Positions 13,295 to 18,195 of a stretch of DNA of 32,593 nt are shown here, in pieces. The position numbers were made by a program, and so were the translations under genes. The notes below the pieces were generated by a model. It was not told the origin of the DNA and made no database searches. It worked only from the letters and a program-made list of their open reading frames with translations. The stretch comes from an uncultured Gammaproteobacteria bacterium (GTDB lineage: Bacteria > Pseudomonadota > Gammaproteobacteria > Ga0077536): contig CALJHG010000047.1 in NCBI GenBank assembly GCA_938075585.1, positions 1 to 32,593 of the forward strand, in the 5' to 3' direction. The stretch's first letter is position 1; each line of letters starts with the position of its first letter.

Positions 13295-14452
13295 GTGAAG
13301 TTAGATGGTGTCAGAGTTCTAGATTTGTCTCGATTTTTGCCTGGACCTTACATGGGTATGTTGTTAGCAGATCACGGAGCGGAAGTGATAAAAATTGAGC
13401 ATGGCTCTGGCGAGCCTACTCGTTATTTAGGTCCTGAAGTAGAGGGCTTTACCACTTACTTCCGCAACACGCAGAGAGGAAAACTAAGCGTAAAATTAAA
13501 TTTAAAAGAAGACGAAGGGGTTCACATCTTTCTAAAACTGGCTGAAGAAAGTGACATTATCATAGATTCATTTCGACCTGGCGTCGTTGATCGCCTCGGA
13601 ATAGGCTACGAAGTGGTTGCAAAACTAAATCCAGGTATCATCTTTTGTTCTCTATCTGCGTTCGGTCAAACTGGAGATATGTCTCTCAGGCCTTCACACG
13701 ATCTCGGTGCGCAGGCGATCACTGGTGTACTTAGCTTGGGTTCGCGAGGAGCAGATGATACGGCATTGCCAGCTGCGCCGACTGCGGATGTGGCTCTAGG
13801 TTCTCTGGCATTGGTAGGGATCATGATGGCGCTATACAGAAGAGAGAAGAGTGGTCGGGGCGATTATTTGGACATGTCTATGACCGATAGTTTGATGTCG
13901 TGGACGCCTCATATTTTGAGCGAGGTGATTGCTAATAATGCAGCGCCGAACTTAAGCCGCGAACGCCTTTACGGTGGCGCAGCGCTTTATAATATCTATG
14001 CGACATCGGATGGGCGTAGGCTAGTCTTATCAGGATCTGAGATGACTTTTGCTGAAAATTTGTTGAACGCGTTGGGGCGTCCCGATTTAGTACCGTTGTG
14101 TGAGAAACCATGGGGAGACGCCCAAAAGCCTGTAAAGGAATTTTTACAGAAAACGTTTCTTACTAAGACATTATCTCAGTGGCGCGAATGGTTCAGCGAT
14201 CGCAGCGTGTGCTGGGCGCCAGTACTAGAACTGGACGAGGCCTGGGAGCAAAAATTTTTAAGAGACAGAGGAATTATAAGTAAAGGAAAGGATGGCGTTG
14301 AGAGAGTGGGGACTCCAGTGCGCTTTCTTAATGAGCCGGGGACGCCGTCGGATAAGTTGCCGACAGTTGGCGAAGACACGCAGCAAGTACTAGGACTGGT
14401 TGGTTACAATTCCCGCGGTTACTATAGACTAATAGAGAATGGGGTTTGCTGA
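13295..14452 (+). CDS. family III CoA-transferase (CaiB/BaiF/Frc)
   Basis: The 385-aa protein has the CaiB/BaiF signature: GVRVLDLSRFLPGPYMGMLLADHGAEVIKIE at the start, RGKLSVKLNLK, DIIIDSFRPGVVDRLGIGYE, and FCSLSAFGQTG. Asp136 (SHDLGAQAITG) aligns with the catalytic aspartate that forms the acyl-anhydride. These enzymes move CoA between carboxylic acids, for example oxalate/formate, carnitine or mesaconate. The substrate here is unknown. Start GTG at 13295 has AGGAG eight bases upstream. Only 3 bases separate its stop from the next gene, so it is the first gene of the operon that contains the UGSC selenoprotein. Confidence 0.92.
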   Translation: MKLDGVRVLDLSRFLPGPYMGMLLADHGAEVIKIEHGSGEPTRYLGPEVEGFTTYFRNTQRGKLSVKLNLKEDEGVHIFLKLAEESDIIIDSFRPGVVDRLGIGYEVVAKLNPGIIFCSLSAFGQTGDMSLRPSHDLGAQAITGVLSLGSRGADDTALPAAPTADVALGSLALVGIMMALYRREKSGRGDYLDMSMTDSLMSWTPHILSEVIANNAAPNLSRERLYGGAALYNIYATSDGRRLVLSGSEMTFAENLLNALGRPDLVPLCEKPWGDAQKPVKEFLQKTFLTKTLSQWREWFSDRSVCWAPVLELDEAWEQKFLRDRGIISKGKDGVERVGTPVRFLNEPGTPSDKLPTVGEDTQQVLGLVGYNSRGYYRLIENGVC

Positions 14453-14455
14453 AGC

Positions 14456-15520
14456 ATGGACGAAGATAATGACAACCTTTTCGCTGCACAGATCTACGAA
14501 GCAGATAGTTACGATGCGGTACAAGAACGGTGTCACTCCAGTCGCTGGACCGACGGTTTGCCTATCATTCCACCGACCCCTGATCTAGTGCGGAAATTTC
14601 TTGCTGAGGCACTAATACCATCACATCATCTCGTTGGCGTGGAACCGGTAAGAGAACGAGCTATTACAGCTGAGCAACTCGCTATCAATGCAGTCATGGC
14701 TGGTTGCGTGGCGCGACATTTTCCCATTGTAGTAGCTGCGTTCACGGCGATGCTGCAAGATAAATTTGTTTTGCATGGAGCGACCTCTAGTACGGGAGGG
14801 TGCGCGATTTTGGTTGTTATCAATGGGCCGGCTGTTCAGTTCCTAGGTATCGACCCTACTTTTAACGTCCTTGGGTCTAGTGATCGGGCTACTACATGTG
14901 TCGGTCGTGCAATTCGTTTGTCATTACAGAATATTTTAGACGTGCGCCCGGGGGAGGCCGATAGATCGACCTTAGGCCATCCTGGTAAGATAAGCTTTTG
15001 TATGGGCGAGGACGAAGGCAACACTTCATGGTTGCCGCTTGCGCAGGATAGAGGCATCCCTTCAAATACGTCGGCGGTCACGGTGTTTGCCGCTGGCTCG
15101 CCACGTCAGATCATGAATGAATGGACTACTAATCCTGAGGAAATATTAGATACTTATGTCTCCGAAATTAAGGCATCGATGCTCAATTACTCTATTCATT
15201 CAGGTGACTGGGCTATAGTCATTCCTCCTCAATTACGCGCACATTTTGAGCACGCTGGATGGGACAAGCGCCAGATCCGCGAATATGTTAAAAAAAATGC
15301 TTGGGTGATGCGAAAGGATTGGGCGTCGTGTGGTAAGAGGGCCGTTATCGCTAATCAAGGGGAACGCAAGTATTTCGCCTTGAAAAGTATTGATGATCTT
15401 TTAGTCATCGCAGCTGGCGGGCCCGCGGGTGGATTCGGGGCGGTAATACCTCCGTGGTTTGGCAAGACCAGTCGTGCGACTACAATGGCAATCGGAGCGT
15501 GTGTAGACTGCGAGATATAG
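14456..15520 (+). CDS. Conserved protein of unknown function, partner of UGSC selenoprotein
   Basis: I recognise the 354-aa protein only as a conserved family often beside UGSC selenoproteins, without a known domain. It opens with YDAVQERCHSSRWTDGLPIIPPTPDLV, then AINAVMAGCVARHFPIVVAAFTAML, INGPAVQFLGIDPTFNVLGSSDRATTCVGRAIRLSLQNI, and PGKISFCMGEDEGNTSWLPLA. The end has VIAAGGPAGGFGAVIPPWFG and a terminal CxxC (CVDCEI). Many cysteines (RCHSS, AGC, GGC, TTC, SFC, ASC, ACVDC) could serve in redox or metal binding. There is no signal peptide or clear membrane helix. Spacing of 3 and 11 bases to the flanking genes suggests one transcript and a joint function with the CoA-transferase and selenoprotein. 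Confidence 0.8.
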   Translation: MDEDNDNLFAAQIYEADSYDAVQERCHSSRWTDGLPIIPPTPDLVRKFLAEALIPSHHLVGVEPVRERAITAEQLAINAVMAGCVARHFPIVVAAFTAMLQDKFVLHGATSSTGGCAILVVINGPAVQFLGIDPTFNVLGSSDRATTCVGRAIRLSLQNILDVRPGEADRSTLGHPGKISFCMGEDEGNTSWLPLAQDRGIPSNTSAVTVFAAGSPRQIMNEWTTNPEEILDTYVSEIKASMLNYSIHSGDWAIVIPPQLRAHFEHAGWDKRQIREYVKKNAWVMRKDWASCGKRAVIANQGERKYFALKSIDDLLVIAAGGPAGGFGAVIPPWFGKTSRATTMAIGACVDCEI

Positions 15521-15531
15521 GAGACTGATGT

Positions 15532-16059
15532 ATGTCAATAAAGTTTTTAGATCCGACTTATAAACGTAACATTACGGACTTCACGTATGCTCCAAGATTG
15601 GAGTCTTTCAAGGATTCTGTGGTAGCGATTATTTCTAATGGAAAACGCGGAACCGTTCCATTTTTTGACTGCTTAGAGGCCGAATTAAAGGAGCGCCACC
15701 AAGTAGCAGAGGTGGTTCGTATAATTAAATCTAATTATAGCACCCCTGTAGACAGCCTATTACTGAATGATGCTGAACGTTGGAATGCTATGATTTCAGG
15801 CATTGGCGACTGAGGCAGTTGTTCCTCGTGCAGTCTGCATGATGCGATTATTTGCGAGCGATTGGGCATACCTTCTGTTGGCATCATGACTGAGCCCTTC
15901 GGAAGTGCGGCAGCGTTGATGGGGCGGGTGCTTGGTGCGAGCCAATTAGAGTTTGTGACTATTACCCATCCAATATCGAGCGCATCTGCTAACGATCATA
16001 GTACGCGGTCTCGAATTGCTTGCAGTGAGATTACAAATATTTTGAGTGGGAGCGATTAA
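15532..16059 (+). CDS. UGSC-family selenoprotein (Sec94 read through in-frame TGA)
   Basis: The ORF track breaks this gene into 15532-15813 and 15862-16059, but it is one frame: 93 codons, TGA at 15811-15813, then 81 more codons to a TAA. The TGA is followed directly by GSCSSCSLHDAIICERLGIPSVGIMTEPF, giving the motif U94-G-S-C97-S-S-C100, after the family-typical IGD. UGSC-family proteins are known selenoproteins, some with Cys in place of Sec. The N-terminal part has VAIISNGKRGTVPFFDCLEAEL, and the C-terminal part has ITHPISS, like the Grd-type HP motif. AGGAG lies 8 bases before the ATG. Stopping at TGA would cut off the redox centre. Reaction unknown; probably redox or cleavage of a carbon-heteroatom bond. 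Length 175 aa. Confidence 0.92.
15824..15844 (+). promoter_or_regulatory. Candidate bacterial SECIS element for the UGSC selenoprotein
   Basis: Within the coding region just after the TGA, TCGTGCA (15826-15832) pairs with TGCATGA (15836-15842): a 7-bp stem with one G-U pair and a GUC apical loop (15833-15835). A mismatch then a C-G pair can extend it. The loop G is the first loop base, and 19 bases separate it from the TGA, within the range generally given for SelB-binding bSECIS hairpins (about 16 to 37). An alternative 5-bp pairing GACTG/CAGTC (15808-15812 with 15831-15835) competes with it. Inferred, not folded by program. Confidence 0.65.
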
Positions 16060-16121
16060 ATTTTTCGCTAATTTGATTAATAGGGGCAAGCAAATGAATG
16101 GTGGGTAGTGGGGAGGAGATG

Positions 16122-17228
16122 ATGGAAAAATATTTTGATGATGGTCACACTCGTGCCAAAGCCTTGAATAATCGTGGTCCGATCAGGTTCGAGAGTGATG
16201 GCACCTTAGGTCGAGATATCTCGGATGCATATTCCGAATATGGTTTTTATATATTTGAGTCTGTGTTAGCTAGTGATGAGCTTGCTGACATCAAAGCTGA
16301 TGTGGAACATATCTTGAATAGAGCTCCGATTAAAAAAGATGCAGAGAACGATCTGAGTGGCAATAGACCGCTAGGTTTCGGGTGCAAAGCTCCGACTTTT
16401 TTCTGGGCGCCGCCTCTCTCTGATCCTTTTGGAGCGACGGACGCAGCCGGAGGCCGACATCCTGTAAAAATGCCAGAGCCTAAAGCCGAGAAAGGGGTTC
16501 CTGACGAAGCGATATTTCTTATATTAGGTTCTTTGCAATTTTCGAATGCGTGTTTACGCGCATACGGACATCCGGAACTTTTAAAAGTGGCAGAGGCTGT
16601 CAACGGCAGTGATTTCACACCGTTTAATGAAGCCTTATTTATCAAGAAGCCCGGAGTAGGGGCATCGGTTGCCTGGCATCAAGATGGTCTGACTCATTGG
16701 GGTAGTGAGGACTTTGACGAAGGGACTCATGGATTTAATTTTATGGCACAACTATATGGAAGTACCGCTCGAAACGGCGTATGGGTCATTCCTGGAACTC
16801 ATCGATTAGGTAAAATGGATATAAAAGAAATGGTTAATGTGGCTGGTACAGAGTATCTCCCAGATGCTGTCCCAATGGTTTGTGGGGCTGGTGATGTAGT
16901 GATCTCTAATAGACAGTTAGTTCATGGATCATTCGCAAATACCAGTAAAGAGGAGCGAGTGACCGTGAATTTTGGTTTTCATAGAAGAAAGTCGGTATTA
17001 GGAGTTAAGGCAGGTGGGGTCCATAATGCCGAGGCTATTTATGATGAAGCTAGGATTTTGAAACGCTCGCAAGTGATTTCTTTGGCTATTAATGCTCGAA
17101 AGCAAAGGTTTCCTCACGAGGAAAGTTTTTGTTACCAACCTTTAGCTAGTTGCGCCGATGATCATCGATGGGATGAAAACACCCTGACAAAGTTAAAGGA
17201 CTATAATTTACTCGATCTGAGCATTTGA
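16122..17228 (+). CDS. phytanoyl-CoA dioxygenase (PhyH) family Fe(II)/2-oxoglutarate enzyme
   Basis: The protein (about 368 aa from this start) shows the PhyH pattern: YGFYIFESVLASDELADIKADVEHIL near the N-terminus, VAWHQDGLTHW with iron ligands H186 and D188, GVWVIPGTHRLGKM, and the distal H268 (RQLVHGSFANTS) followed by RVTVNFGFHRR. These enzymes hydroxylate CoA esters or small molecules. I chose the ATG at 16122 because GGGAGG sits 5 bases upstream; the track's 16098 start adds 8 residues with only a weak site. It starts 62 bases after the selenoprotein stop, so co-transcription is possible but not shown. Confidence 0.87.
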   Translation: MEKYFDDGHTRAKALNNRGPIRFESDGTLGRDISDAYSEYGFYIFESVLASDELADIKADVEHILNRAPIKKDAENDLSGNRPLGFGCKAPTFFWAPPLSDPFGATDAAGGRHPVKMPEPKAEKGVPDEAIFLILGSLQFSNACLRAYGHPELLKVAEAVNGSDFTPFNEALFIKKPGVGASVAWHQDGLTHWGSEDFDEGTHGFNFMAQLYGSTARNGVWVIPGTHRLGKMDIKEMVNVAGTEYLPDAVPMVCGAGDVVISNRQLVHGSFANTSKEERVTVNFGFHRRKSVLGVKAGGVHNAEAIYDEARILKRSQVISLAINARKQRFPHEESFCYQPLASCADDHRWDENTLTKLKDYNLLDLSI

Positions 17229-17293: not shown

Positions 17294-17803
17294 ATGAATT
17301 GGTCTGCGATTTTTAATTGGTCGGCGCTTGGGTCGATATCTGAGACGATTGGTGCCATCGCGGTAGTCGCTTCGCTGATCTATCTTGCGGCACAAATTAA
17401 GCAAAACTCGAATGCGGTCCGCGCGACTATAGAGCAAGAAAGCGCAAAATTAATAAATCAGACGGTGATGTCTATCGGTGCGTCTGAAGAGCTTAGCCTA
17501 CTTTATTTGCGGGCGACCGAGGATTTTTCTGCTCTGAAACCTGCCGAAAAAGCTCGTATGTTTATGATATTGACAGGTATTTTTAGAGCGTTTGAGGTTT
17601 TGTATAGACAGCAGGAGACTGGGCATGTAAGTCAAGAAATATGGTCCGGTTACGAGCATTTCATCAAAGCAGTGGTCCAAACTGACTTATTCGAAAATTG
17701 GTGGGCGGTGAGGAGCGGCACGTTTTATTTCGGGTTTAGAAATCATGTGAATCAAATGGATCTTTCTGACGCCCCGGTAAAACCTATGGCGATTTTGGGA
17801 TAG
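17294..17803 (+). CDS. Hypothetical protein with N-terminal membrane helix
   Basis: I do not recognise a named family. The 169-aa protein has one clear hydrophobic segment, ISETIGAIAVVASLIYLAAQI (about 15-35), followed by IKQNSNAVRATIEQESAKLINQTVM, a likely coiled helix, and a mainly helical soluble domain ending in HVNQMDLSDAPVKPMAILG. The membrane anchor plus helical body is common in small marine-bacterial proteins of unknown role. AAGGAGC lies a few bases before the ATG. It precedes the GTPase-like gene by 8 bases, so they are likely an operon. Confidence 0.75.
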   Translation: MNWSAIFNWSALGSISETIGAIAVVASLIYLAAQIKQNSNAVRATIEQESAKLINQTVMSIGASEELSLLYLRATEDFSALKPAEKARMFMILTGIFRAFEVLYRQQETGHVSQEIWSGYEHFIKAVVQTDLFENWWAVRSGTFYFGFRNHVNQMDLSDAPVKPMAILG

Positions 17804-17811
17804 CTGGGCTT

Positions 17812-18195
17812 GTGGGGATATCTGGATCTCAAGTAAAGATCTTATATGGCGTATATGATGCCGACGGTGGCTTATGGGGCGAGATTAAATATATTTTAGG
17901 CAAAATAAGTGGTTTAGCCCATTGTACTTTATGTGATATGACCCATGGTTGGTCACTAAGAGGGAAGAAGGAATGGATTGGTTTTGCTAATCGCAGTGAA
18001 TTAGAATTTAGGCTTTTGCATCGCAATGAGCAACCTAGCGATCTTGCCAAAACCACTGGCGATAGCATTCCTTGCATCGCACAGAGAATTGGAGACTCCT
18101 ACTCTGTGATTGTCAGTCCTGAAGAGTTGGTGACATGTGAAGCTGATATAAGAAATCTTGAGATATTGCTTGCGTCGAAACTGGGTAGCGTTTAA
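17812..18195 (+). CDS. Conserved small protein with HCxLCD motif (GTPase-like annotation seen in relatives)
   Basis: The 127-aa product carries ILYGVYDADGGLWGEIKYILGKISGLAHCTLCDMTHGWSLRGKKEW, with a C-x2-C pair in HCTLCDMTHG. I recall relatives loosely labelled GTPase, but no Walker A or G-box motif is visible, so I do not support that. The C-terminal part has RIGDSYSVIVSPEELVTC. The CxxC suggests a metal or redox site. The start is a GTG (17812) without an obvious ribosome site, possibly translated by coupling to the preceding gene 8 bases away. It is convergent with the quinone-oxidoreductase-like gene. Confidence 0.68.
   Translation: MGISGSQVKILYGVYDADGGLWGEIKYILGKISGLAHCTLCDMTHGWSLRGKKEWIGFANRSELEFRLLHRNEQPSDLAKTTGDSIPCIAQRIGDSYSVIVSPEELVTCEADIRNLEILLASKLGSV

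Follow-up and report, generated by a model that had tools for sequence, protein, structure and literature searches.

Proteins with a UGSC motif were described in a 2008 survey as a major group, among the most abundant selenoproteins of ocean and aquatic metagenomes (PMC2398784). The same survey supposed a thioredoxin-like fold for them, reported a fusion to a domain called "Unknown_1" and gave no function. A 2026 review (PMC13188914) counts them among the selenoproteins whose functions are largely uncharacterized. We found no biochemical data for any member of the family and, subscription papers and the texts of database entries aside, neither a link between UGSC and GrdB nor a name for the protein that accompanies it.

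The second group of described systems comprises the selenoenzymes that contain protein B of glycine, sarcosine and betaine reductase (GrdB, GrdF and GrdH) and the related D-proline reductase subunit PrdB. A further system for comparison is the fluoroacetate reductase FarB/FarE of Cloacibacillus, in which a GrdB-like protein was assigned to a non-amine leaving group on the basis of transcriptomics and comparative genomics (PMC10838667). It sets a precedent for chemistry of the GrdB kind with a leaving group other than an amine, and its Far partner lacks the processing cysteines; it differs from the genes studied here in consisting of GrdB and GrdE homologues and in occurring in anaerobes.

In this work, we place UGSC with the active-site domain of protein B and tie one specific, unannotated partner family to it. 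Together, the placement and the partner yield a concrete, testable enzyme hypothesis as well as an unannotated family to name, and abundant aquatic selenoproteins that have been filed as thioredoxin-like receive a candidate enzyme role. If the hypothesis is true, a classic anaerobic reductive chemistry has a non-Stickland counterpart in marine bacteria and haloarchaea.

The window, that is, the whole stretch of 32,593 nucleotides that was analysed, comes from an uncultured gammaproteobacterium and carries the gene in a series of closely spaced genes on the forward strand, in the order CoA-transferase III, partner, UGSC and PhyH-type dioxygenase (Table 1). A preliminary description of this DNA had reported a motif order of UGSCSSC, 11 residues, GIPSVGIMT and later THPISS. 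All of these elements are present in the translation, as U94-G-S-C97-S-S-C100, residues 101-111, G112-I-P-S-V-G-I-M-T120 and T145-H-P-I-S-S150.

Table 1. Features of the window around the UGSC gene (positions within the window)
Feature	Position	Strand	Remarks
CoA-transferase family III (CaiB type)	13295..14452	+	385 aa; PF02515, 307 bits
Partner protein	14456..15520	+	354 aa; CVDCEI C-terminal tail; adjoins UGSC; unannotated family
UGSC-family selenoprotein gene	15532..16059	+	175 aa when TGA is translated as Sec; ATG 15532; stop TAA 16057
Predicted Sec codon 94	15811..15813	+	in-frame TGA (GD-U-GSC); from frame reading
Bacterial SECIS-type hairpin (predicted)	15825..15843	+	8-pair stem, 3-nt GUC loop, 11 nt after UGA
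Phytanoyl-CoA dioxygenase-like (PhyH) protein	16098..17228	+	376 aa; PF05721, 65 bits
Two closely spaced ORFs past the PhyH gene	17294-17803, 17812-18195		169 and 127 aa; no Pfam match

The same description had suggested a small relative of the protein B active-site domain; the protein is not an unnamed relative but a member of a family known in the literature since 2008. The Pfam model "UGSC" (PF24696) matches it with 138.3 bits (gathering cut-off 25), residues 5-172 aligning with positions 2-171 of 172, and the UGSC motif contains a predicted UGA-encoded Sec with a SECIS-type element downstream. The NCBI equivalog model NF041046, "UGSC family (seleno)protein", gives 111.8 bits, which is under its cut-off of 125. 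By the broad Pfam definition the protein is therefore a family member, while it falls outside NCBI's equivalog threshold. It shares with the family the whole-length match, the motif and the occurrence of Sec or Cys forms; it differs in the NF041046 score and in that its model does not support the thioredoxin-like fold of the literature.

With the standard code, an ORF finder ends the frame at 15813, which gives a 93-aa product. The TGA could thus be a true stop, so that the gene either encodes 93 aa or has decayed and the 3' similarity is a relic, but it would be very surprising if this were so. Similarity continues past the TGA under purifying selection (compared with its closest relative, the window has a dN/dS of 0.13 upstream and 0.096 downstream), and a covarying hairpin follows. 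Nearly every copy from the taxonomic family of the window likewise has TGA here, with a Cys codon instead in some more distant genomes, plasmids and haloarchaea. Finally, the window's genome encodes tRNA-Sec (anticodon UCA), SelB and SelA, all on one contig. In an alignment of 25 copies, the hairpin has eight aligned pairs and a loop of GUU, GUC or GUG, with 95% of cells paired (slid pairings, used as a control, reach at most half), and the window copy forms seven of the eight stem pairs. One pair is compensatory, changing from C-G to G-C between subfamilies. The covariation score was reached by none of 500 shuffles, although kinship among the sequences alone can beat shuffles. The thermodynamic fold of the single segment is unremarkable (z -0.31 over 50 nt), so the support for the hairpin comes from covariation and not from single-sequence folding. 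Judged from sequence, Sec decoding of the window's UGSC gene is well supported. A gene of the beta-lactamase family (PF00144; L041:7737-8996) lies between selB and the tRNA-Sec gene of the same genome.

To compare UGSC with protein B, we aligned real GrdF, GrdH, GrdB-like and PrdB sequences from plasmid records; a GrdB bait sequence served only for finding such records, and only sequences from actual records entered the profile comparisons. Real GrdB, GrdF and GrdH proteins read U-G-T-C-T-R-C, followed after 11 residues by GI[PT] in four out of five, so the spacing is identical to that of UGSC. The HMM-HMM comparison that the preliminary description had proposed as a check was run with hhalign. 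A profile of 40 UGSC proteins matched the GrdB/GrdF/GrdH/PrdB profile with a probability of 95.3, an E-value of 2.4e-8 and a score of 61.5; the E-value was 1.4e-7 for GrdB-type sequences alone and 3.8e-5 (probability 71) for PrdB alone, all of these E-values being pairwise and not database-wide. In the alignment, UGSC residues 82-173 lie on GrdB 335-422 with UGSC on UGTC, and the UxxCxxC segment is followed in register by GIP and an HPLG-type motif in the C-terminal domain. The match extends beyond the motif, as masking its seven columns left the register unchanged and a score of 36.2. The best of 200 column shuffles reached 22.3, the reversed profile 27.0 and the best of 24 unrelated profiles 19.2. 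Independently, the Pfam UGSC model matches residues 322-422 of the GrdB bait sequence (E 0.001).

On this profile-profile evidence, the active-site half of UGSC is homologous to GrdB. The N-terminal half shows no detectable similarity to it (score 12.9, with shuffles up to 15.2). PF07355 (GRDB) did not match any of the 40 family members at E-values up to 10, which tests the upstream part only, since this model ends just before Sec. No relatives of UGSC were found in the PDB, and the GrdB bait had no match in viral_contigs. The relationship to the active-site domain of protein B that was put forward earlier is therefore supported at the level of sequence profiles, for the C-terminal half only.

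Several features are common to UGSC and GrdB, GrdF and GrdH: the homologous active-site domain with UGSCxxC on UGTCTRC, the 11 residues, GIP and a later HP or YP, as well as a modular organization with many paralogues and a second subunit. In contrast, UGSC lacks the N-terminal approximately 220 residues, its partner is unrelated to GrdE/PrdA and there is no GrdA. PrdB, a Sec subunit of only 241 aa with a UGTCxR motif, belongs to the same superfamily as UGSC. It gives the weaker profile match of the two and has no HP motif past the Sec segment, and UGSC in turn lacks a PrdA-type partner.

The AlphaFold model of UGSC (pLDDT 88.7) predicts five strands alternating with helices in a Rossmann-type fold and puts Sec94 after strand 86-92 and before helix 95-110. 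Its best PDB matches are flavodoxin-like proteins, lumazine synthase and other Rossmann-type folds (TM about 0.5). No thioredoxin-fold chain occurs among the best 50 matches, and a thioredoxin-like fold is likewise absent from the predicted model.

Of the glycine reductase system, GrdA, GrdE/PrdA and GrdB were sought in genomes that carry UGSC; the absence of grdA was among the checks that the preliminary description had offered. Neither GrdA (PF04723) nor GrdE/PrdA (PF09338, Gly_reductase) was found in the window's genome, which is 92% complete, or in five other genomes with the UGSC pair, and the positive controls (three records) were recovered. PF07355, which covers the pre-Sec part only, has no match in the window's genome either. 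On this sequence evidence, UGSC is not a GrdB orthologue and is placed outside the glycine reductase system. Unlike the Grd systems, the window has a dioxygenase-type neighbour and no Stickland cluster.

UGSC had also been described as stand-alone, which did not survive the analysis of its neighbours. Relatives of the 354-aa partner lie at most 250 bp from UGSC, on the same strand and in either order, in 45 of 46 copies; the remaining copy sits at a contig end. Among 399 Pseudomonadota genomes, six contain UGSC, and the partner was found in exactly those six. It also accompanies UGSC on plasmids of haloarchaea, actinobacteria, alpha- and betaproteobacteria. Within-family distances of the two proteins correlate with r 0.97 over 37 pairs (reached by none of 2000 permutations), a value that is expected for co-inherited neighbours and means that the pairs were not reshuffled. 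Seven of the copies, all in one relative (G006), are in-frame fusions of UGSC and partner, with linkers of 49-75 residues. That genome carries nine or more UGSC copies, including the seven fused ones (L065-L068), a large in-genome expansion. It is likely that the partner family is the same as the "Unknown_1" fusion domain (PMC2398784).

The partner has no match in Pfam, NCBIfam or the PDB, either alone or as a 40-member family, and none in phage records. Its comparison with the GrdE/PrdA profile gave a probability of 0.1, which rules out this identity. The AlphaFold model is confident (pLDDT 86.8, pTM 0.89) and has no convincing structural match in the PDB. A 3Di likeness to class I fumarase (7xky, E 1.2e-4) was rejected as its TM is 0.3 and global superposition fails (rmsd 15.6), and the likenesses to fumarase and to cyclic-amide hydrolase reach TM values of 0.2-0.3 only. 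Conserved polar residues include D33, R151, N159 and E185, while C84 and C182 are near-invariant. The CVDCEI ending is specific to the window's clade.

The CoA-transferase gene ends 3 bp upstream of the partner gene, and each of the six loci of the window's clade has a homologous gene ahead of the pair; CoA-transferase III is also found near the pair in haloarchaea and Roseovarius. The PhyH gene begins 38 bp downstream of UGSC and is not conserved in the clade. It is possibly part of the same transcript, which may end with the two ORFs that follow. Thioredoxin reductase genes recur in other loci: trxB together with trxA adjoins or lies near the pair in Arthrobacter, trxB in Variovorax and Roseovarius, and genes for TrxB-like flavoproteins in G193, G006, Haloterrigena and V. 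boronicumulans. The window has no TrxB adjoining the pair, and the same is true of most loci of its family. Haloarchaeal loci contain a CoA-transferase, a CoA ester lyase and TRAP transporters, several loci have carboxylate-type transporters (TRAP, tripartite), and some have an acyl-CoA dehydrogenase. In one locus (L064), domain matches identify selA and selB immediately 3' of the pair, and clustering assigns homologous genes to the same place in two others (L073, L076).

UGSC is almost always beside or fused to its partner, so the pair is probably one reductive enzyme. A predicted selenolate where a helix starts, a GrdB-type loop, a putative resolving Cys three positions further on, an obligate partner and recurrent thioredoxin reductase neighbours all fit a two-component enzyme of this kind. 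We therefore propose, with about even confidence, that UGSC and the partner act together as a two-component selenoenzyme for the reductive cleavage of a bond in organic acids or their CoA thioesters, in the manner of protein B. The two proteins would form one complex and bind the substrate at their interface. The selenolate of Sec94, modelled at the start of the helix after the third strand of the Rossmann-like domain, would attack the substrate, an organic acid that is probably activated by CoA, at an activated carbon or heteroatom, displacing a leaving group or cleaving a bond. The selenium adduct may then be resolved by C97 and C100, possibly also by the CxxC tail of the partner, and thioredoxin reductase or thioredoxin would carry out the final reduction. 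By analogy, the chemistry would be that of protein B of glycine, sarcosine and betaine reductase with another partner and without GrdA. Organic acids or CoA thioesters are suggested as substrates by the nearby CoA-transferases and carboxylate-type transporters, and the neighbours vary between UGSC subfamilies and so do not point to any one substrate. The presence of several paralogous UGSC pairs per genome has a parallel in Grd systems, whose protein B modules are substrate-specific. As the partner is not GrdE/PrdA and has no good match to a solved fold, no pyruvoyl group or other electrophile is accounted for. More tentatively, the UGSC pair could be a Sec/Cys reductive-cleavage family that shares its descent with the active-site domain of protein B and is widespread in haloarchaea and apparently aerobic bacteria, in which a new substrate subunit has no pyruvoyl group, thioredoxin reductase is the direct reductant and paralogous pairs of one genome serve different substituted organic acids (C-N, C-S, C-O, C-halogen).

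Two other functions have to be weighed against reductive cleavage. UGSC could be a thioredoxin-fold thiol/selenol oxidoreductase acting on protein or low-molecular-weight disulfides or on peroxides, with the partner as its chaperone or client. The UxxC motif, the fold supposed in the literature (PMC2398784) and the TrxB and GST genes near some loci would suit this, but the confidently predicted Rossmann-type domain and the lack of thioredoxins among its 50 best PDB matches speak against it. Moreover, thioredoxin proteins do not usually come with an obligate partner of 350 aa, and in relatives many paralogous pairs lie next to catabolic genes of different kinds, which makes such an oxidoreductase unlikely. 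Alternatively, the pair may be an acyl-transferase, lyase or hydratase that works without net reduction: the CoA-transferase would supply an acyl-CoA, and the acyl group would become bound to Sec as a selenoester or to Cys as a thioester. This agrees with the constant CoA-transferase upstream of the pair in the clade and its presence near the haloarchaeal pairs, with the CoA ester lyase and acyl-CoA dehydrogenase neighbours and with the weak 3Di likeness of the partner to class I fumarase. That likeness fails on global superposition, however, recurrent thioredoxin reductase neighbours imply redox turnover, and Sec rarely serves non-redox chemistry; we regard non-reductive acyl chemistry as rather improbable.

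Some members of the family depart from the common arrangement. On haloarchaeal plasmids (L131, L132, L137, L138), two diverged partner genes flank one Cys-type UGSC gene, which suggests a hetero-oligomer. In a fusion protein of Sporomusa termitida (L135:5308-7032), GDMGTSS replaces U/CGSC, so the nucleophile is gone while the partner domain is kept; at least one member therefore works without U/C or is inactive. Although the G331 copy (L113:8850-9292) is of Cys type, its frame contains a TGA (at SEKFUPAGQ) and is broken, so it is probably decaying. In Paracoccus ferrooxidans, a Sec-type UGSC gene (L140:5429-5998) spans two annotated "hypothetical" fragments, with selB, TusA, DsrE and cysteine desulfurase genes nearby. 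Only one of five members of the genus carries a close relative of the window's UGSC copy. The window's genome contains a second Sec-type pair (G000:C28:3260-4802, L042); matches at the level of its UGSC also occur in the other members of the genus, and its thiolase/SDR neighbourhood is common to two further loci (L070/L071).
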